Below, piece after piece: positions 24,550 through 33,635 of a DNA stretch of 64,000 nt. The position numbers and the translations under genes are program-made. The notes under the pieces are model-generated. The model had not been told where the DNA came from, searched no databases, and saw only the letters and a program-made list of their open reading frames with translations. This stretch comes from Engelhardtia mirabilis. Its GTDB lineage: Bacteria; Planctomycetota; UBA1135; GCA-002686595. How positions within the stretch are numbered: position 1 is the first letter of the stretch; each line of letters opens with the position of its first letter. The DNA is taken from contig CP036296.1 in NCBI GenBank assembly GCA_007751255.1, forward strand, positions 6,820,001 through 6,884,000. Direction: 5' to 3'.

Positions 24550-27450
24550 ATGAAACACCGCACCACCGCACTTGCAGCGAGCGTGCTCGCCTTTGGAGCG
24601 ACCTACGTGTCGGCCCAGACCCAGGCACACGCAGTTCTCGTCGACCCGAACAACTCGGACCTCGTCTGGACGGTCAACCACGACAACGACTCGGTCTCCC
24701 AGGTCAACGTCGCCACCGGCGCCGTGGTCGCGGAGATCGCGGTCGGGGCCCAGCCCAACCACCTGGCCTTCAACGCCGCGGGCACCAAGCTGCTGGTGGT
24801 CAACCGGCGCGGGAACGTGCCGCTCACGACCAACTTCGTGACGCCCTTCACCGGCGCCGAGATCCGCGGCAGCATCAGCGTGATCGACGTGGCCACCAAG
24901 ACCGTCGAATCCTTGCTGACCGACGTGGGCACCGAGCCCTACGGCATCGCCCTGTCGCCCAACGGCAAGTTCTTCGTCGTCACCGCCTTCCGCTCCAGCG
25001 AAGTGCTGCTGCTCGACGCGACGACCTACGCCGAGCTGGCTCGCCACGAGTACGACGACGACCTCAGTCACATCGCCCCGGGCAAGACCATCGACCAGAT
25101 CGACACGGACTTCGACGGGGTGCCGGACCTGGCCAACCCGCGTCTGTTCTCGGTCACCGCGGACTCGGCGAAGATCTACGTCACCCACTGGAAGTCGCCG
25201 TGGATCTCGATCCTCGACGTGACCCTCGACGGCTCGGGTGTCCCGACCGCCGTGGCCGAGGGCGGTCGCATCAACCAGGACGACTACGACCTGCACCCGA
25301 TCAACAACCCGATCCCGAACCACACGGTCGCGAGTCAGGGTGACCCGACCTTCTCGGACGACATCGCGATCTCGCCCGACGGCACCCGCGCGCTCGTTCC
25401 GCAGGTCCTGCTGAACATCAACTTCGACACCACCCACGACTTCGCGGGTGCGATCGCGGGGGCCTTCGCCAACCGCGTGTACCCCTCGCTGACGATGCTC
25501 GACCTCGTCACCGGGAGCTACAACGCCCCCGGTGACGCGTCGAATCGTCTGCACCACGAGCTGACCGACACGCTGACCCCGGCCAAGTACGTGCCCTTCG
25601 GCGGCCAAGGCCGCAGCATCGGCGGGGGCATCGTGACCCTCGGCGGCTCCGGCTCGCCGGTCCTCGGCGGTTCGGCCGACTTCGTGCTCAGCGGCGTCAA
25701 CGGCGCCGGCGTGCTCGGCTTCGTCTGGTACGGCATCGAGACCAACATCCCGGTGCCGCCCCTGGGCACCCTGCTGGTCGACCTGCAGGGCTCGATCGCG
25801 ATGAGCGCGAGCGTCGGTGACCAGTGGGCCGGCTCGATCGCCATCCCGAACTCGCCGGTGCTCGACGGCCAGGTCGTCTCCTTCCAGGGCGCGACCTTCA
25901 ACACCAACAACGGTGACATCGGCCTCTCGAACGGCGTCCGCGTGGTGCTCGGCACCACCGGCACGGGCCTGAACAAGATGGGCTACCGCGCCGGCCAGCC
26001 CTACCGCGCCGACTACAACGCGGCCGGTGACAAGGTCCTGATGCTGAACCAGGGCTCCGAGGACGTCTTCCTCTACGACGTCAACGGTTCGGACATGACC
26101 CTGCAGACGGTCTTCCCGCCCCGTCACGGCCACGTGGAGCGCACGCCGCTCGACCTGACCACCGCGATCGGCGACATGCCGATCGGCTGGACGGTCGTGC
26201 CGGACCCGGCCACCAGCAACGACGACGCGCTGATCTACATCCAGAACGAGGTCACCACCTCGCTCAGCGTGTTGCGCGTCGACTACGCCACCGGCGTGAT
26301 CACCAAGGAGGCCGACCAGATCGTCACGATCACCGGCCCCGACCAGAAGACCGTCAGCGAGCGCATCGGCCAGGAGCTGTTCCACGACGCCTCCCGCGCC
26401 CAGACCACCGGCAACTTCAACAACTCCTGCTACTCCTGCCACGCTGAAGGTGGTGAGGACGGCAAGAGCTGGGACCGCCCCGCCGGCCCGCGTACGACCA
26501 TGCCGGTCTACGGTGGCCCCCTGGGCTCCGGTCTGCTGCTCTGGAAGGGCGTCCGCGTCAACCTGGGCGAGACCGGCCCGATGTTCGGCGGCGAGAACGG
26601 CGGCACGGGCATCATGAGTGACGTCGAGCAGCAAGGCCTGATCGACTACCACAAGGTCATCCCGTTCCCCCTGAACCCGAACCTCGATCCGGTCACCGGC
26701 GACCTGACGTCGCTGGCGGCCTACGGTCAGGACCTGTTCTTCGGGACCAACGACACGGGCCTCAACCCGACCCAGCGCGCGGCCGGCTGTATCGCCTGTC
26801 ACCCGAAGGCCGACGCCGTCAACGGCAGCACGCGCCTGTTCACCGCTGACTTCCTCGACCCGATCTACACCGACGGTCTGGAGTTCGGCTACGTCCACGA
26901 CGACAACTGCCTCAACCTGCAGGAGAACATCGCGCAGCTCAACATCCGCGCGGTCAACTCCCAGGTGAACGGCGACGAGGATCTGGACGGCTTCCCCGAC
27001 TTCGACCGCAACCTCGACGGTTACTCGGACATCGAGGGTTACACCCCGATCCACCCGGACTCGGACGACAACTTCGAGCGGGACGACCCGAACAGCTACC
27101 CCTGCCCCCTGGATCCGTTCTTCGACCCGCTCGGGCCGAAGAAGGTCTTCAACCGCAAGCTGAAGCTGTTCTCGATTCCGACCAAGCTCGCGGTCTTCCA
27201 CACCTACCCGTACATGCACGACAACTCGCTCGTGTCGCTGCGGGCGATCGTCGACCCGGACTCGCAGATGAACGATCCGGTCTACGGCAGTGCGAACTAC
27301 CCGACCACCTTCAAGTGGTTCAACGAGTTCCACGACATCCGCGGCCACGAGGACATCGTTCCCCAGGCCTCGAAGGTCCAAGTCTCCCTGGTCAGCACCG
27401 ACAAGGACGCCGACATCGAGGCGATCCTGGCCTTCATCTCGAGCCTGTGA
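24550..27450 (+). CDS. Secreted beta-propeller protein with diheme cytochrome c peroxidase-like C-terminal part
   Basis: The 966-residue product has a Sec signal peptide ending near VSAQ. A YVTN/YncE-type beta-propeller follows (repeats such as VAEIAVGAQPNHLAFNAAGT and VGTEPYGIALSPNGKFFVVT). The C-terminal third has two c-type heme sites, CYSCH (Cys627) and CIACH (Cys747), and closing features (KLFSIPTKLAVFHTYPYMHD) as in MauG/CcP-like proteins. At about 372-466 an unrelated beta-rich segment interrupts the propeller; similar segments are usually met at the C-terminus of secreted planctomycete and myxobacterial proteins. Periplasmic or surface electron transfer or oxidation is likely; the substrate is unknown. 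An Asp-rich DxDxDG-like stretch near 810-825 may bind calcium. Confidence 0.8.
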   Translation: MKHRTTALAASVLAFGATYVSAQTQAHAVLVDPNNSDLVWTVNHDNDSVSQVNVATGAVVAEIAVGAQPNHLAFNAAGTKLLVVNRRGNVPLTTNFVTPFTGAEIRGSISVIDVATKTVESLLTDVGTEPYGIALSPNGKFFVVTAFRSSEVLLLDATTYAELARHEYDDDLSHIAPGKTIDQIDTDFDGVPDLANPRLFSVTADSAKIYVTHWKSPWISILDVTLDGSGVPTAVAEGGRINQDDYDLHPINNPIPNHTVASQGDPTFSDDIAISPDGTRALVPQVLLNINFDTTHDFAGAIAGAFANRVYPSLTMLDLVTGSYNAPGDASNRLHHELTDTLTPAKYVPFGGQGRSIGGGIVTLGGSGSPVLGGSADFVLSGVNGAGVLGFVWYGIETNIPVPPLGTLLVDLQGSIAMSASVGDQWAGSIAIPNSPVLDGQVVSFQGATFNTNNGDIGLSNGVRVVLGTTGTGLNKMGYRAGQPYRADYNAAGDKVLMLNQGSEDVFLYDVNGSDMTLQTVFPPRHGHVERTPLDLTTAIGDMPIGWTVVPDPATSNDDALIYIQNEVTTSLSVLRVDYATGVITKEADQIVTITGPDQKTVSERIGQELFHDASRAQTTGNFNNSCYSCHAEGGEDGKSWDRPAGPRTTMPVYGGPLGSGLLLWKGVRVNLGETGPMFGGENGGTGIMSDVEQQGLIDYHKVIPFPLNPNLDPVTGDLTSLAAYGQDLFFGTNDTGLNPTQRAAGCIACHPKADAVNGSTRLFTADFLDPIYTDGLEFGYVHDDNCLNLQENIAQLNIRAVNSQVNGDEDLDGFPDFDRNLDGYSDIEGYTPIHPDSDDNFERDDPNSYPCPLDPFFDPLGPKKVFNRKLKLFSIPTKLAVFHTYPYMHDNSLVSLRAIVDPDSQMNDPVYGSANYPTTFKWFNEFHDIRGHEDIVPQASKVQVSLVSTDKDADIEAILAFISSL

Positions 27451-27494
27451 TCAAGGGGGCTTGACCCCACACGACTCGGGCTTCGGCCCCCAGC

Positions 27495-27535
27495 GCAGCG
27501 GCCCCCGCGATCCTCACGATCGCGGGGGCCGCTGC
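27495..27535. terminator. Bidirectional terminator hairpin
   Basis: A 17-base-pair perfect GC-rich stem (27495-27511 with 27519-27535) and a seven-base loop lie between the convergent cytochrome gene and rpiA. No strong T-run follows on either strand. Confidence 0.7.
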
Positions 27536-27571
27536 CGTTCGGGCGGGGCCCGCATGCGAGGTCAGGGCCGC

Positions 27572-28258
27572 TCAGCCCTTCTCGCGCACCTCGACCGTGC
27601 CGTCGTCGTCGGCGATCACCACGGCGTCGGCCAGGCCCAGGAAGAGCCCACACTCGACAACTCCCGGGGTCGCCGCCAGGGTCAACTCGAGTGCCTCCGG
27701 GTCTTCGATGCCGCCCTCGAAGTGGACGTCGAGCACGGCGTTGCCGTTGTCGGTGCGGTACTCGCCCCCACCGGCCGCCTGCCGCTCGCGCGGCTCGCCG
27801 CCCAGCCGAGCGATCTGTCGCGCCACCACCGGCAGGGCGAAGGGCACCACCTCCACCGGCAGGTCGAAGGTCGTCCCGAGCCGCTCCACGACCTTGTCGC
27901 GGCCTACGACGATGACCTCGCGCCGACTGATCGAAGCCACGACCTTCTCGCGCAGCAGTGCACCGCCGCCGCCCTTGATCATCCGGTACTCGGCGTCGAT
28001 CTCGTCGGCGCCGTCGACGGTGAAGTCGAGCAGATCCACCTCGTCGAGACCGACCAGGGGGATGCCGAGCTCGCGCGCCACGGTCTCGGTGTCGATCGAG
28101 GTCGGCACCCCGCGCACCTCGAGGCCCTCGTCGCGAATGCGCTCCGCGAGCCGCTCCAGGAAGAAGCGCACCGTGGATCCGGTCCCCAGGCCGAGGGTCG
28201 AGCGATCGGGAACGAGGTCGGCTGCACGGCGGCCGGCGGCGAGTTTGGCCTGGCTCAT
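27572..28258 (-). CDS. rpiA: Ribose-5-phosphate isomerase A
   Basis: This enzyme interconverts ribose 5-phosphate and ribulose 5-phosphate in the pentose phosphate pathway. The 228-residue product has all family landmarks: GLGTGSTV (phosphate loop), FTVDGADEID, MIKGGGGALLREKVVAS with the catalytic Glu/Lys region, and TDNGNAVLDV. Length is normal. ATG at 28258. It is divergent from feoA, with a common upstream region of about 280 bases. Confidence 0.96.
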   Translation of the reverse strand: MSQAKLAAGRRAADLVPDRSTLGLGTGSTVRFFLERLAERIRDEGLEVRGVPTSIDTETVARELGIPLVGLDEVDLLDFTVDGADEIDAEYRMIKGGGGALLREKVVASISRREVIVVGRDKVVERLGTTFDLPVEVVPFALPVVARQIARLGGEPRERQAAGGGEYRTDNGNAVLDVHFEGGIEDPEALELTLAATPGVVECGLFLGLADAVVIADDDGTVEVREKG

Positions 28259-28540
28259 GGGGGCTTGTTCGGAGGGAGGCGCTCGTCGCGCCCGGACTGG
28301 GTCGGATCGATCGAGAGGGGCCGCGATTGTTTAGGGGCGTCGGAGCCCAGACAAGCGCCCTGCGCGCCGATGAAAGGGCTATACTCCCCCCTCTTTGCGA
28401 CCGAATCTCATTTAGGCCGGCAGCGCGAGCGAACCTGCCCTGCGAGAACCCTCCCCGCCCGGGCCCACCAACCCCCGCCCCTCCGCCCCGTGGACCGCGC
28501 GGAACGACCACCGGTTACGCCTCCAACCCCGATTCTTCAC

Positions 28541-28774
28541 TTGGTCACCACCACCCTCGATCAGCTTCGTCCCGGACAGGGCGGTCGCCTCGTCAGCCTC
28601 GGCGGCGAGCGGCTGTTCCGACGTCGGTTGATGGAGTTGGGCCTCTTGCCGGGCTCGCGCGTCTCGGTCGTGCGCGCGGCGCCCTTGGGTGGAGTCCTGG
28701 AGCTGGAGGTGCGCGGTTCGCTGCTCAGCGTGCGGATGTCCGATGCCGCAATCCTCTCGGTCGAGGTGAGCTGA
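28541..28774 (+). CDS. feoA: Ferrous iron transport protein A
   Basis: FeoA is a small SH3-fold protein that supports FeoB. The 77-residue frame has the family pattern LDQLRPGQGGRLVSLGG, LMELGLLPGSRVSVVRAAPL and a C-terminal VRMSDAAILSVEV. The start is uncertain: TTG at 28541 gives normal family length; an in-frame GTG at 28490 would add 17 Pro-rich residues. It lies 13 bases before feoB. Confidence 0.9.
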   Translation: MVTTTLDQLRPGQGGRLVSLGGERLFRRRLMELGLLPGSRVSVVRAAPLGGVLELEVRGSLLSVRMSDAAILSVEVS

Positions 28775-28787
28775 GGCTCGTCGAGCT

Positions 28788-31019
28788 TTGATCCAAGCCT
28801 CTACTCCTCCGCCCCTGGTGGCCCTGGCGGGTAATCCGAATACCGGCAAGACGGCGCTGTTCAACCGCCTCACGGGCGCGCGGGCCAAGGTGGGCAACTA
28901 TCCGGGCATCACCGTGGATCGCCACGAAGGGCTGGTCCGGCTCGGCAGCGAAGGCCGTGTGGCGCGGCTGCTCGACGTGCCGGGCAGCTACTCCCTGTCG
29001 GCGCGTTCGGAAGAGGAACGCATCGCCGTGCGCGCCATTGCCGGGCTCGAGGGCGAGGAGCGTCCGGGGGCCGTGGTGCTGGTGCTGGACGGCACCCAAC
29101 TCGGCCGCAACCTCTACTTCGCGCTGCAGGTGATCGAACTCGACCTGCCGACAGTGGTCGCAGTCAACCTGACCGACGTGCTCGCCAAGGAAGGCCGCGT
29201 CTTCGACGTGCAGCGCCTTCGGCGCGCCCTGGGCGTGCCGGTGGTGGCCCTCTCGGCGCGCAGTGGCGAGGGTGTCGACGACCTGCGCGCGGCTCTGGCG
29301 GGGGTGCTGGACGGCGAGCCCGAGGCGCGGCCCGGTTGGCGCTGGGAGCCCGGCACCGACGCCCTGCGCCGGGACGTGGACGAAGTCCACGCGGCCCTGC
29401 CCCCCACCTGGCGCGACGGGAACCCGCGTCGCGAGCGAGCCCTGGCCGTTTGGGCCCTGCTCTCCCTCGACGAGGGGGACGAGCTGCGCGGCATCGACGG
29501 ACGCCTGCGCGCCGCGGCGTCGGCCGCCCACGAGCGGGCCAGCGTCGAGGGTCGCTCGATCGACGAGGAGGTCGTCGCCGGGCGCTATGGCTGGATCGAG
29601 GAGCACACCGCTGGCGTCGTCACCGCGCGGGCATCGGCGCGTGACAGTTTCACGAGCGCGATCGACCGGGTGCTGCTCTCGCCGCTCCTGGGCTTCCCGA
29701 TCTTCCTGGCCCTGATGACGATCGTCTTCCAGGCGCTCTTCGCCTGGGCCGACCCGGCCATCGGCGCGATCGAGTCGCTCTTCGCGTGGCTCGGAGGGGT
29801 GGTCGGCCCGGCCCTGCCCGAGGGCTTCCTACGCAGCTTCGTGGTCGACGGCCTGATCGCCGGCGTGGGCGGTGTGCTCGTCTTCCTGCCCCAGATTCTG
29901 CTCCTGTTCCTGTTCGTGGCGGTGATGGAGGACACGGGCTACATGGCTCGGGTGGCCTTCCTGATGGACCGCATCATGAAGGCCTGTGGCCTGCACGGGC
30001 GCGCCTTCGTGCCCATGATGAGCGGCTTCGCCTGCGCGATCCCGGCCGTGATGGCCACGCGCACCATCGAGCGCGAGCGCGACCGCCTGCTGACGATGAT
30101 GGTCGTGCCGCTGATGACCTGCTCGGCGCGGCTGCCGGTCTACACCCTCTTGATCGCGGCCCTGTACCCGCCCGGCAGGGGCGATTCGTTCCAGCAGGGG
30201 CTGATCATGGCGGGCATGTACCTGTTCGCCACGGTGGTGGCCCTGATCGCGACCGCCGTGCTGAGCCGCACGGTCTTCGCGGGCGTGAACCCGCCGCTGC
30301 TGCTCGAGATGCCCGCTTACCGCATGCCCCAACTGCTCGGGGTCCTGCGCACCATGTGGGAGCGCAGCACGATCTTCGTGCGCGAGGCGGGCACGGTGAT
30401 CCTGGTCGCCACGATCACCCTGTGGGCCCTGCTGAGCTTCCCGGCGGATCCCGAGCTAGGGCCCGAGCTCGCGGGACGCCTCGGCGCGGCCGAGGCGTCC
30501 GTGGACAACGCGCGGAGTGGGGCTGCACCCGATCCAGCCGCGCTCGAGTCCGCCGAACAACGCCTGGCCAAGGTCGAAGCGGAGATCTCGAGCCTGCAGC
30601 TCAACGAGAGCTACGCGGGTCGCCTGGGCCGCGGGATCGAGCCCGCGATCGCGCCCCTGGGCTTCGACTGGAAGATCGGCGTGGGCCTGATCGGCTCCTT
30701 CGCCGCGCGCGAGGTCTTCGTCAGCACCATGGCCATCGTCTACGGGCTCGAGGACGACGGCGAGGACACCGCGACTTTCCGCCAACGCCTCTCCTCCGAG
30801 AAGCGACCGGACGGCAGCAAGGTCTTCACGCCCCTGGTGTGCGTCTCGCTGATGGTCTTCTTCGCCCTGGCTGCCCAGTGCATGAGCACCATCGCGGTGG
30901 TCAAGCGCGAGACCAAGAGCTGGCGCTGGCCCCTGTTCATGCTCAGCTACATGACCGTGCTGGCCTGGGTCGGCAGCTTCACCGTCTACCAGGGCGGCAG
31001 GCTGCTGGGCTTCGAGTAG
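28788..31019 (+). CDS. feoB: Ferrous iron transporter FeoB
   Basis: FeoB is the inner-membrane Fe(II) transporter with an N-terminal GTPase. The 743-residue product has G1 GNPNTGKT, a G2-like GNYPGITVDR, G3 DVPGSYSL and G4 NLTD. Membrane segments follow from about residue 290, with both Gate motifs seen as MSGFACAIPAVMATRTI and MTCSARLPVYTLLI. A 60-residue Ala/Glu-rich insert (about 560-620) lies before the last Gate-associated segments. TTG start. No feoC is present. Expression is probably iron-responsive, but no clear Fur box could be found upstream of feoA. Confidence 0.96.
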   Translation: MIQASTPPPLVALAGNPNTGKTALFNRLTGARAKVGNYPGITVDRHEGLVRLGSEGRVARLLDVPGSYSLSARSEEERIAVRAIAGLEGEERPGAVVLVLDGTQLGRNLYFALQVIELDLPTVVAVNLTDVLAKEGRVFDVQRLRRALGVPVVALSARSGEGVDDLRAALAGVLDGEPEARPGWRWEPGTDALRRDVDEVHAALPPTWRDGNPRRERALAVWALLSLDEGDELRGIDGRLRAAASAAHERASVEGRSIDEEVVAGRYGWIEEHTAGVVTARASARDSFTSAIDRVLLSPLLGFPIFLALMTIVFQALFAWADPAIGAIESLFAWLGGVVGPALPEGFLRSFVVDGLIAGVGGVLVFLPQILLLFLFVAVMEDTGYMARVAFLMDRIMKACGLHGRAFVPMMSGFACAIPAVMATRTIERERDRLLTMMVVPLMTCSARLPVYTLLIAALYPPGRGDSFQQGLIMAGMYLFATVVALIATAVLSRTVFAGVNPPLLLEMPAYRMPQLLGVLRTMWERSTIFVREAGTVILVATITLWALLSFPADPELGPELAGRLGAAEASVDNARSGAAPDPAALESAEQRLAKVEAEISSLQLNESYAGRLGRGIEPAIAPLGFDWKIGVGLIGSFAAREVFVSTMAIVYGLEDDGEDTATFRQRLSSEKRPDGSKVFTPLVCVSLMVFFALAAQCMSTIAVVKRETKSWRWPLFMLSYMTVLAWVGSFTVYQGGRLLGFE

Positions 31020-31124: not shown

Positions 31125-33635
31125 TCAGCTCCGTGCGTCTTGCAGGAACTGGGCGAATTTCTGAGCCGACATGTAGGGGCCCTCTCCCAAGCGCTCACCC
31201 GTGGCCGGGTCGACCACGACGTAGTAGGGATTGGCCACCGTGCCGGCCAGGTCTCGCTGCAGCCCCTGGATCCGGTCGATGTTGACCCGACCGTCGGTGT
31301 GCAGGCGCGCCTCGACGAAGTTGGGGACGAGTTCCGCGGCGACCGCCGCGCTGGGGAAGGTGAACTTCTCCATCTTGCGGCAGTTCACTCATGTGTGGCC
31401 GGTGAAGTTCACCAGCAGCAACTTGCCCTCCTGCCGCGCGAGGGCGAGGGCGCCGTCGTAATCGTCCTCGACGATCGTGTGGCCCTTCTGACGCGACTCT
31501 CCTGCGCCGCTCGAGGCGCCGGAGACCTCGTTGGCGATGCTGTGGCTGTAAGGCGGCACGATCGCGGTCATGATCGGATCGAGCATGCGGCCGCTCGCGC
31601 CGTAGCCCGAGTAGGTCGCGAGTAGCACGAAGCCGAGGCCCGCCAACATGCGGATCGGGCCGATCTCGCCGCTCTCGCCCTTGAGCTTGATGAAGCCCAG
31701 GACGAAGGCTCCCGCCACCGCGAAGATCGCCATCCACAGGGCCAGGAACAGCTCGCGCGAGAGCACGTTCAGACCCCAGACCAGGTCGGCGTTGGAGAAG
31801 AACTTGAACGCCGCGGCGAGCTCGACGAACCCCAGGGCGACCTTGAGCGTGCCCATCCAAGCGCCGCTCTTGGGGATCGACGCCAGGCGGCCGGGGAGCA
31901 GCGACAGGAACACGAAGGGCAGGGCGATGGTCAGCCCGAAGACCGCCATGCCGATCACCACGCGCCCCACGCCGCCCCCGCCGGTCGCGCCCACCGACAG
32001 GAGGCTGGCCACGAAGGGCGCGGTGCAGGTGAAGCTGGTGATCACCAGGGTCGCGCCCATCAGGAACACGCCGATCAGCCCGCCCTTGGTGGAGGCCTTG
32101 CCGGCGGCGTCCATCAGGAACCGCGGGGGGTTCATGTTGATCGCGCCGAACAGCACCAGGGCGAAGTAGAAGAACAGCAGGCCGATGATCGTGTTGAAGA
32201 TCGGGTCCGTGGCCAGGGTGATGATCGGACCGCCGACCACCACGCCGATGAACACGAAGATGCCCACGATCCCGGCCCCGTAGGCGAGGGCCAGGGGCAG
32301 GACCTTGCCGCCCCGCGCATCAGCCTGCTTCGTGAAGAAGCTGATCGTGATCGGGATCATCGGGTAGGTGCACGGCATCAGGAGCGTGAACAGGCCCCAG
32401 AAGATCGCCAGGCCGAGGAAGGCCACGAGGCCGTCGTCGGGCGCTTGCTCGGGCGCCCCATCGGCGTCCGTGGGGCGGTCGCTCGCGGGGCTGCTCTCCG
32501 CGGCATCGCCGCTGGCGGAGCTGTCCGTGCCCGTGGGCGACTTCGCGGTCGCACGGGTCTGCAGCGCTGCGAACCCGGCGAAGAGCTCGTCCGAGCCCGC
32601 ACCCGAGCCCCGGACCGTTGCCGCGAATGGCATGCAAACGCCGTCCTCCTCGCAGGTCAGGCCGTCGAGGGTGACCGTCACGTCTCCGGGCGCCGGGACG
32701 GACCTCCCCACGTCGACGTGCCCCTCGATCAGCACGACCACCTGGCCCTCGTGACCCAGGATCCAGGTGTCGCGGCCGCCGTCGCCGAGGCCGGGCTGTT
32801 CGAAGCGATGGGGCTCGGGGAAGACCGGCGCGCTCCACTCGACCCCCGGCGCCTCGATCTCGACCTTGGTCGGCTTGCCGACCGCGTCGGGCTGTCCCAG
32901 CTCGGTGTGGTAGAGGTGCCAGCCGTCCGCGATGTCGAGCACCAGCACCGCGCGCACCGAATCGTCGCCCGCGCTGCGAACGGAGAGCTGCGCCGCGACG
33001 ATCTCGTCGTCGTCCGCGCCGCCGAGGCCGTCGAAGAAGCTGTCGAGGTCGAAGTCGTCCTCCTCCTCGACCTGGGCCTGGGGCGCCGCTGCGAGGAAGT
33101 CGGCGAAGTAGTTGTCAGGGCCGGCACCAGCGCCCGCGACGGTCTCGTTGTAGGGGATGCAAACCCCGTCGTCCTCGCAGGTCAGGCCCTTCAGCCGAGC
33201 GGTGACACCGGAGGGCAAGAGGCTCGCCGCGGGGTCGGCCAACACCCCGTCGACCTTCACCACCAGCTGGTCCGCGTGACCCTGGATGTAGGTGTCGCCG
33301 CCGTCCTCGCCCAGCCCGGCCTGGACGTAGCGGTGGGGCGTCGGGAACACCGGCGCGTCCCACGTGACCCCGGCGGCCTCGAGGGTCACCGTCGTCGGCA
33401 TGCCGATCGCGTCCGGCGGGCCCAGGTCATCGTGGTAGAGGTGCCAGCCGGGATCGATCTCGAAGCGGACCACCGCGCGCACGCGCTCGCCCTCGCTGCG
33501 CACCCAGAGGGTCGCCTGTGCCTTCTGGTCGCCGCCCAGGCCGAATTGGGCTGCCGCTTCGGCTTCCGGAGACAGCAGAGTCAAGAGCGACAGCAGCACC
33601 AGCGGCACCGTCGCGAGGAGGCGGTTGAATGTCAT
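31125..33635 (-). CDS. dsbD: DsbD-type thiol:disulfide interchange selenoprotein (in-frame UGA, Sec749)
   Basis: This is an inner-membrane reductase that carries electrons from cytosolic thioredoxin to the periplasm. Read through one UGA it is 836 residues. A signal peptide is followed by two copies of the DsbD N-terminal domain (about 35-180 and 212-355), each with a Cys pair (GLTCEDDGVC, GLTCEEDGVC). A CcdA-like membrane domain follows, with its two Cys (MPCTYPMIPI at 422 and SFTCTAPF). The C-terminal thioredoxin domain reads LLVNFTGHT-UGA-VNCRKMEKF. In DsbD homologues this position is the first Cys of CxxC, so UGA would encode selenocysteine (UVNC). The rest of the thioredoxin domain continues in frame for 87 codons to a normal stop. 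A stem-loop starts directly after the UGA. A true stop here would leave the enzyme without its output domain. Confidence 0.88.
31360..31391 (-). promoter_or_regulatory. UGA codon and SECIS-like hairpin of dsbD
   Basis: The UGA is at 31391-31389. Immediately after it, GTGAACT (31388-31382) pairs perfectly with AGTTCAC (31366-31360) around a 15-base loop. Bacterial SECIS elements are hairpins just 3' of the UGA inside the coding region, so the placement fits, but the apical loop is not the classical form. Confidence 0.6.

Follow-up and report, generated by a model that had tools for sequence, protein, structure and literature searches.

A dsbD gene with a probable selenocysteine codon in Engelhardtia mirabilis and its planctomycete relatives, and a candidate insertion hairpin far from the UGA

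DsbD is a membrane protein that brings reducing power to proteins outside the cytoplasm. We analyzed a 64,000-nucleotide stretch of the Engelhardtia mirabilis genome (contig CP036296.1, positions 6,820,001 to 6,884,000; hereafter the window), which contains a dsbD gene with an in-frame UGA codon. Judging from its sequence, this gene very probably encodes a functional selenocysteine (Sec)-containing DsbD, and UGA 749 is almost certainly read as Sec at an active-site position, as it appears to be in many related bacteria. The gene opens with ATG at 33635, gives 836 residues on read-through, and terminates at a TGA (31127-31125) located 87 codons past the in-frame UGA. An earlier note, made from the sequence alone, had proposed that the UGA in the motif FTGHT-U-VNCRKMEKF replaces the first cysteine (Cys) of the C-terminal CxxC and that the frame runs on to a stop. 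The translation agrees with this proposal; the coordinates and the motif were correct, and the strand, which had been left unstated, is the minus strand. The features of the gene, including a candidate selenocysteine insertion sequence (SECIS), are as follows.

31125..33635, minus strand: dsbD with an in-frame UGA predicted to be read as Sec (read-through translation, and Pfam domains above cut-off)
33141..33500, minus strand: first DsbD_N domain, residues 46-165, with C153/C159 (Pfam)
32616..32993, minus strand: second DsbD_N domain, approximately residues 215-340, with C328/C334 (limits approximate, set by eye)
31800..32420, minus strand: DsbD_TM membrane core, residues 406-612, with C422 and C537 (Pfam and alignment with E. 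coli)
31206..31469, minus strand: C-terminal thioredoxin domain (Thioredoxin_7), Pfam match at residues 723-810 (the model resembles solved DsbD C-terminal domains)
31389..31391, minus strand: UGA codon for residue 749 (putative Sec), which opens the U-V-N-C motif (relatives hold TGA or a Cys codon here in all loci read)
31380..31382, minus strand: codon of Cys752, the presumed resolving Cys (invariant in alignment A1)
31355..31371, minus strand: place of a spacer hairpin between the UGA and the SECIS candidate (consensus and covariation in relatives)
31335..31350, minus strand: SECIS candidate hairpin CGCGGC-GGUC-GCCGCG, with its loop 44 nucleotides (nt) after the UGA

The whole window protein was used to search 151 genomes (its own and those of relatives). 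DsbD-like matches were found in 146 of them, and the match contained a TGA in at least 95. The codon homologous to UGA 749 was read in 110 loci, of which 30 came from this search and 80 were the best of 169 from a named genome collection, searched with patterns derived from the window protein (one of them taken from beside the site). This codon is TGA in 102 loci, TGC in seven, and TGT in one; among the 82 distinct genes, the counts are 77, four, and one, respectively. A phylum-wide search with profile A1 (392 genomes, Planctomycetota only) provided 30 loci, and 40 further stretches were chosen by hand (26 with TGA and 14 without). These 70 loci are partly the same genes as the 110, and their TGA:Cys ratio was set by the hand choice; 53 of them have TGA at this position and the other 17 a Cys codon. 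All in-frame TGA codons within the matches lie at this column, except for the true stop of one row. When the genomes are ranked by their DsbD match, the match contains a TGA in 84 of the top 124 (E up to 8.7e-91; the codon itself was read for part of the 84), and TGA-bearing DsbD is present in at least 27 planctomycete family groups. The carriers in the named collection are recorded as planctomycetes or as unnamed bacteria, and the chromosomes of Pla163 (CP036290) and Poly30 (CP036434) are among them. The gene therefore has an in-frame UGA where its homologues have Cys, which is a criterion for bacterial selenoproteins. In the window genome, the whole protein gave one DsbD match and profile A1 gave four, among which the window gene alone was inspected; it is likely that this genome has no second DsbD. 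DsbD-like matches at G017:C219, G019:C623, G031:C44, and G061:C25 span approximately query residues 11-611 and are without the C-terminal thioredoxin domain.

A nonsense mutation or a sequencing error would leave a broken dsbD, and the frame does halt ahead of the output domain if Sec is not decoded. However, the TGA recurs at the same codon in nearly all of the distinct genes and in many families, and purifying selection persists past the UGA. Beyond +72 nt of the UGA, the ratio of nonsynonymous to synonymous substitution rates was 0.00-0.25 in 15 of 16 close pairs chosen by hand, and it was not computable in the remaining one; the codons past the UGA are under purifying selection. Barring one error common to all of the genomes, the conservation refutes a pseudogene or an error, to which we assign next to no probability. 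A start at the GTG after the UGA, giving the last 87 codons as a product of their own, was also considered. It was judged unlikely because the thioredoxin fold would miss its first strand and helix and because the restriction of the UGA column to TGA and Cys codons would then be unexplained.

In a quick protein tree of 121 rows (unrooted, with the UGA coded as X and with Shimodaira-Hasegawa-like approximate likelihood ratio supports without bootstrap), at least 12 changes between Sec and Cys are needed, 10 of which are forced by starred branches. The window row clusters with Pla163. Six Cys rows (L020, L031, L035, L086, L090, and L192) are single tips amid Sec rows, and they are most simply explained as losses of Sec.

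The window protein has the domain composition of a DsbD in a single chain. The Pfam scores, with the cut-offs in parentheses, are 78.3 bits (25) for DsbD_N, 71.8 (27.1) for DsbD_TM, and 35.5 (27) for the C-terminal thioredoxin domain; Pfam counts two DsbD_N stretches and gives limits for the best one only. The protein contains seven Cys residues and the putative Sec, and all eight are at positions of the DsbD relay. C328/C334, C422, C537, U749, and C752 align with the redox residues of E. coli K-12 DsbD (NP_418559.1), while C153/C159 form the pair of an extra N-terminal domain. The E. coli protein has its N-terminal, membrane, and C-terminal thioredoxin parts in the order seen in the window protein, with which it shares 26% identity, but it has Cys at this position, one N-terminal domain, and no UGA. 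An AlphaFold model of the core and the C-terminal domain, with Cys in place of Sec, has a mean predicted local distance difference test score of 86.5, and residue 749 (model position 355) immediately precedes a helix (356-365). The best matches in a structure search with this model include solved DsbD C-terminal domains from Bacteroides, E. coli, and Neisseria, of which the two Bacteroides chains alone reached an E value of 0.001. In a sequence search of the PDB, the Bacteroides DsbD C-terminal domain was found to have CVNCRKME where the window protein has UVNCRKME.

The window genome (G000; 6.95 Mb in two contigs, estimated to be 90.5% complete) encodes the machinery for Sec. Matches above the curated cut-offs were obtained for selA (461 bits), selB (313 bits), and tRNA-Sec (selC; anticodon UCA, 70 bits). 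A selD gene, recognized by reading its frame by eye, is located directly downstream of selA, and its own frame crosses a UGA at the catalytic position.

L010:11465-12517 (G000:C1, about 2448147-2449199): selD with UGA (by eye)

The hairpin that follows this UGA carries a GGUCU loop, which lies 32 nt downstream of the codon (offset 35). The open reading frame (ORF) preceding selA (L010 8704-9894) resembles an MsrB-MsrA fusion by eye. A selA hit, fragmentary in some cases, was found in 93 of the at least 95 relatives' genomes with a TGA inside the DsbD match. However, selA is present in 143 of the 151 genomes; because it is nearly universal in the order, its co-occurrence is weak evidence there. 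In the phylum set, the association has the direction expected for Sec: a strong selA match is missing in 4 of 84 TGA-bearing genomes versus 8 of 40 without TGA (Fisher P 0.018, kinship ignored). When weak or fragmentary matches are counted as present, the numbers are 3 of 84 versus 6 of 40 (P 0.031, kinship ignored).

Decoding of the UGA as another amino acid, through a reassigned code or a suppressor tRNA, would likewise keep the frame open through the UGA. It is very improbable, because relatives show Cys at this position and never Trp, Gly, or Arg, the sel genes are present, and 58 of the 110 loci, including the window gene, use TGA as their own stop. Since the window gene itself ends with TGA, this codon is not globally reassigned, and code reassignment was rejected on these three grounds. 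The earlier note had asked for selA, selB, selC, and selD in the genome and for homologues with Cys at the UGA position, and it would have given up Sec if the sel genes were absent, if relatives had a sense codon other than Cys or Sec, or if the UGA were a sequencing error. All four genes are present, relatives hold Cys or UGA and nothing else in the loci read, and the conservation across genomes speaks against an error. Its Sec reading is also favored by a SECIS-like hairpin, which we found downstream of the UGA.

The SECIS candidate in the window gene has a GGUC loop on six pairs, and GGUC is also the loop of the E. coli fdhF SECIS. Folding energies were compared with synonymous recoding, and the mean Z was -1.10 at +3 and -1.22 at +12, just after the UGA. 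At the other 20 offsets, it ranged from -0.79 to +0.45, and the two offsets that come next in strength, -12 and -36, share sequence with this region. The Cys genes (n=5) gave -0.88 at +3 and -0.74 at +12; therefore, folding energy alone does not separate Sec from Cys. Of the 77 Sec genes, 69 have a hairpin with a GGU loop and at least four pairs (synonymous control: mean 16.2, maximum 23, 100 draws), and so does one of five Cys genes. Its offset in the Sec genes, counted from the U of the UGA, is 47 in 58 genes, 23 in nine, 27 in one, and 41 in one. With an NGU loop and a score of at least 12, the hairpin is found in 91 of 103 distinct Sec genes (the 77 and, from the 28 wide rows, the 26 left after removal of two duplicates; control mean 30.6, maximum 41, 100 draws) and in one of 18 Cys genes (5 plus 13; control mean 1.0). 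With a score of at least 14, these numbers are 74 of 103 (control 21.1) and 0 of 18. The loops among the matches are GGUC (76), CGUG (10), AGUU (four), and AGUG (one). Unlike folding energy, the hairpin distinguishes Sec from Cys genes; among the six single-tip Cys rows, L031 alone retains it by the NGU-loop criterion. In L091, L094, L096, L098, L101, L107, L113, L118, L120, and L177, the GGUC hairpin is 24 nt closer to the UGA, at the usual distance. The near and distal placements require two changes on the tree.

In the 58 genes of the distal class, the GGUC hairpin shows covariation, with 266 of 290 cells paired versus 243.4 on permutation (standard deviation 2.1; the permutations here and below ignore relatedness). 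The wobble bases of its loop and stem are fixed to a degree that codon use does not explain: at +45, 56 of the 60 Ala codons are GCG (against a gene-wide share of 0.44); at +48, 63 of the 71 Val codons are GTC (0.47); and at +51, 48 of the 54 Ala codons are GCC (0.38). A second hairpin, in the spacer between the UGA and the GGUC hairpin, also shows compensatory changes (317 of 348 cells versus 299.7 permuted, standard deviation 2.7). In the available text of a 2026 review, most bacterial SECIS elements have 16-37 nt from the UGA to the loop, and some deviate (PMC13188914). The loop of the spacer hairpin is 23 nt after the UGA, inside this range, and SelB might thus read the spacer hairpin instead of the distal one. 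However, the fixed wobble bases are in the GGUC loop and stem, and in other lineages (9 of 77 genes) it is GGUC that occupies the near position; recognition of the spacer hairpin is therefore considered unlikely. A long helix (nt 4-14 with 44-53) was first favored as the SECIS by its energy and pairing (85.7% of cells paired in the 77 genes and 91.2% in A2, a set of 53 of the 77 without the Poly30-like group, near-duplicates, and weak folders). It was dropped because covariation is absent from its arms in the 58 genes of the distal class (529 of 580 cells paired versus 531.8 permuted). A scan of the window with Rfam at gathering scores gave nothing useful.

Several observations weigh against a Sec-containing DsbD with this SECIS. 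The window protein scored 112.7 bits against the NCBIfam model NF001419 (PRK00293), whose cut-off is 330; it is a DsbD by its domains and redox residues, outside this curated subfamily. In the phylum set, three TGA-bearing genomes have no selA match and one has a fragment only. The relatives G052 and G147 (77% and 73% complete) likewise have a TGA-bearing DsbD and no selA match. The change of the loop motif from GGU to the broader NGU was made once the sequences had been viewed, and 12 of the 103 Sec genes have no hairpin by the criterion used. RNAalifold on A2 gave a weak consensus of six pairs (-2.42 kcal/mol). In the window gene, the spacer hairpin forms four of the six consensus pairs, or four pairs one register on (by eye). 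The candidate resembles the consensus bacterial SECIS, as described in the available text of PMC13188914, in its small apical loop with G then G/U and its stem of at least four pairs. However, its loop is 44 nt from the UGA, outside the published 16-37 (the near class is at 20 nt), and a spacer hairpin is conserved in its relatives.

From the frame, its conservation, the sel genes, the hairpins, and the selection described above, we infer Sec incorporation, an electron path, and a benefit of Sec; the relay order and the benefit follow general knowledge of DsbD and of selenoproteins. SelB and Sec-tRNA(Sec), guided by the downstream GGUC hairpin, would insert Sec at UGA 749. By homology, cytosolic thioredoxin would reduce the Cys422/Cys537 pair of the membrane core, and the core would in turn reduce the Se-S bond between U749 and C752 of the C-terminal domain. 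The Sec selenolate, at the first CxxC position, may then act as the nucleophile towards the N-terminal domains and attack the C153-C159 and C328-C334 disulfides, with C752 as the resolving residue, and the N-terminal domains would pass the electrons to clients outside the cytoplasm. The likely gain from Sec is a faster and more oxidation-tolerant transfer step, and the supply of selenium would limit the pathway. Alternatively, the UGA could be a switch, giving a deliberately truncated DsbD without the C-terminal domain at low selenium and the full protein when selenium is available. A second DsbD-like match comprising the N-terminal and membrane parts alone in G017, G031, and G061 is in line with such a switch. 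However, in the DsbD scheme as known, the core needs the C-terminal domain to hand its electrons over, and we regard the switch as improbable.

Searches of the open literature turned up neither a full-length Sec-DsbD nor a description of its distribution in Planctomycetota, and no SECIS with this layout. The domain cd02953 is presumably that of DsbD-gamma. It appears as "Trx-like 2 (Thiol disulfide interchange protein)" with 22 sequences in the available text of PMC2398784, and it was not named in the other papers searched. A "thiol:disulfide interchange protein" with UxxC was described in Geobacter and Syntrophus (PMC1794560), and an entry of that name (PF13098, UxxC) is listed in PMC13188914 and PMC9312934. 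This family has UxxC in a thioredoxin domain like the window protein, and its description, in the text available, does not mention the DsbD membrane core. The suggestion of the earlier note that the protein may be new is partly right at most: the full-length Sec-DsbD may be new, but the UxxC family has long been listed (PMC1794560, PMC2398784). In the available text of PMC13188914, DsbD is named once, for the rhodanese/DsbD fusion TsoB (NF045694). TsoB is a selenoprotein whose DsbD-like core matches window residues 394-674, but it differs in its UxxxxU motif, two Sec residues, and rhodanese part. The window protein scored 103.9 bits against NF045694 (cut-off 805), and a rhodanese domain is not among its Pfam matches. 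DsbD was not found under the terms searched in PMC1088965, PMC5029168, and PMC1914089. Selenoproteins have been reported in the planctomycete isolates P1 and P2 (PMC4807772), and the supplementary list of that study might include the window protein; searches on Planctomycetes or Planctomycetota with selenoprotein found no other title on the topic.

We give slightly better than even chances to a broader proposal. In this proposal, full-length Sec-DsbD is widespread in Planctomycetota with repeated exchanges between Sec and Cys, the recent ones being losses of Sec; its carriers run extracytoplasmic reduction through selenium; and its SECIS belongs to a class outside the consensus model, with the GGUC loop 44 nt after the UGA, a covarying second hairpin that shortens the path, and a placement 24 nt nearer in other lineages. 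The SECIS layout is the boldest part of what is new. With the GGUC hairpin in a distal position and a covarying hairpin in the spacer, the permitted UGA-SECIS distance in bacteria becomes directly testable, and search models restricted to 16-37 nt may overlook such elements or place them wrongly. DsbD is a main bacterial route for electrons across the inner membrane, and the natural Sec and Cys forms among close relatives are matched pairs for studying the benefit of selenium in a thioredoxin relay. Annotation without Sec decoding truncates such genes at the UGA, and the output domain is lost.

The neighbors of dsbD in the window (FeoB, RpiA, MurJ, and YqeY) include no obvious partner. The large protein encoded at 24550-27450 (plus strand) matches a beta-propeller model (YNCE) weakly, with a score below cut-off, and CxxCH motifs were recognized in it by eye. 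It is possibly a c-type cytochrome, whose maturation could need DsbD. The feoB gene (28788-31019, plus strand) is convergent with dsbD, and the end of the ORF ahead of it (27290-28774) resembles FeoA by eye.
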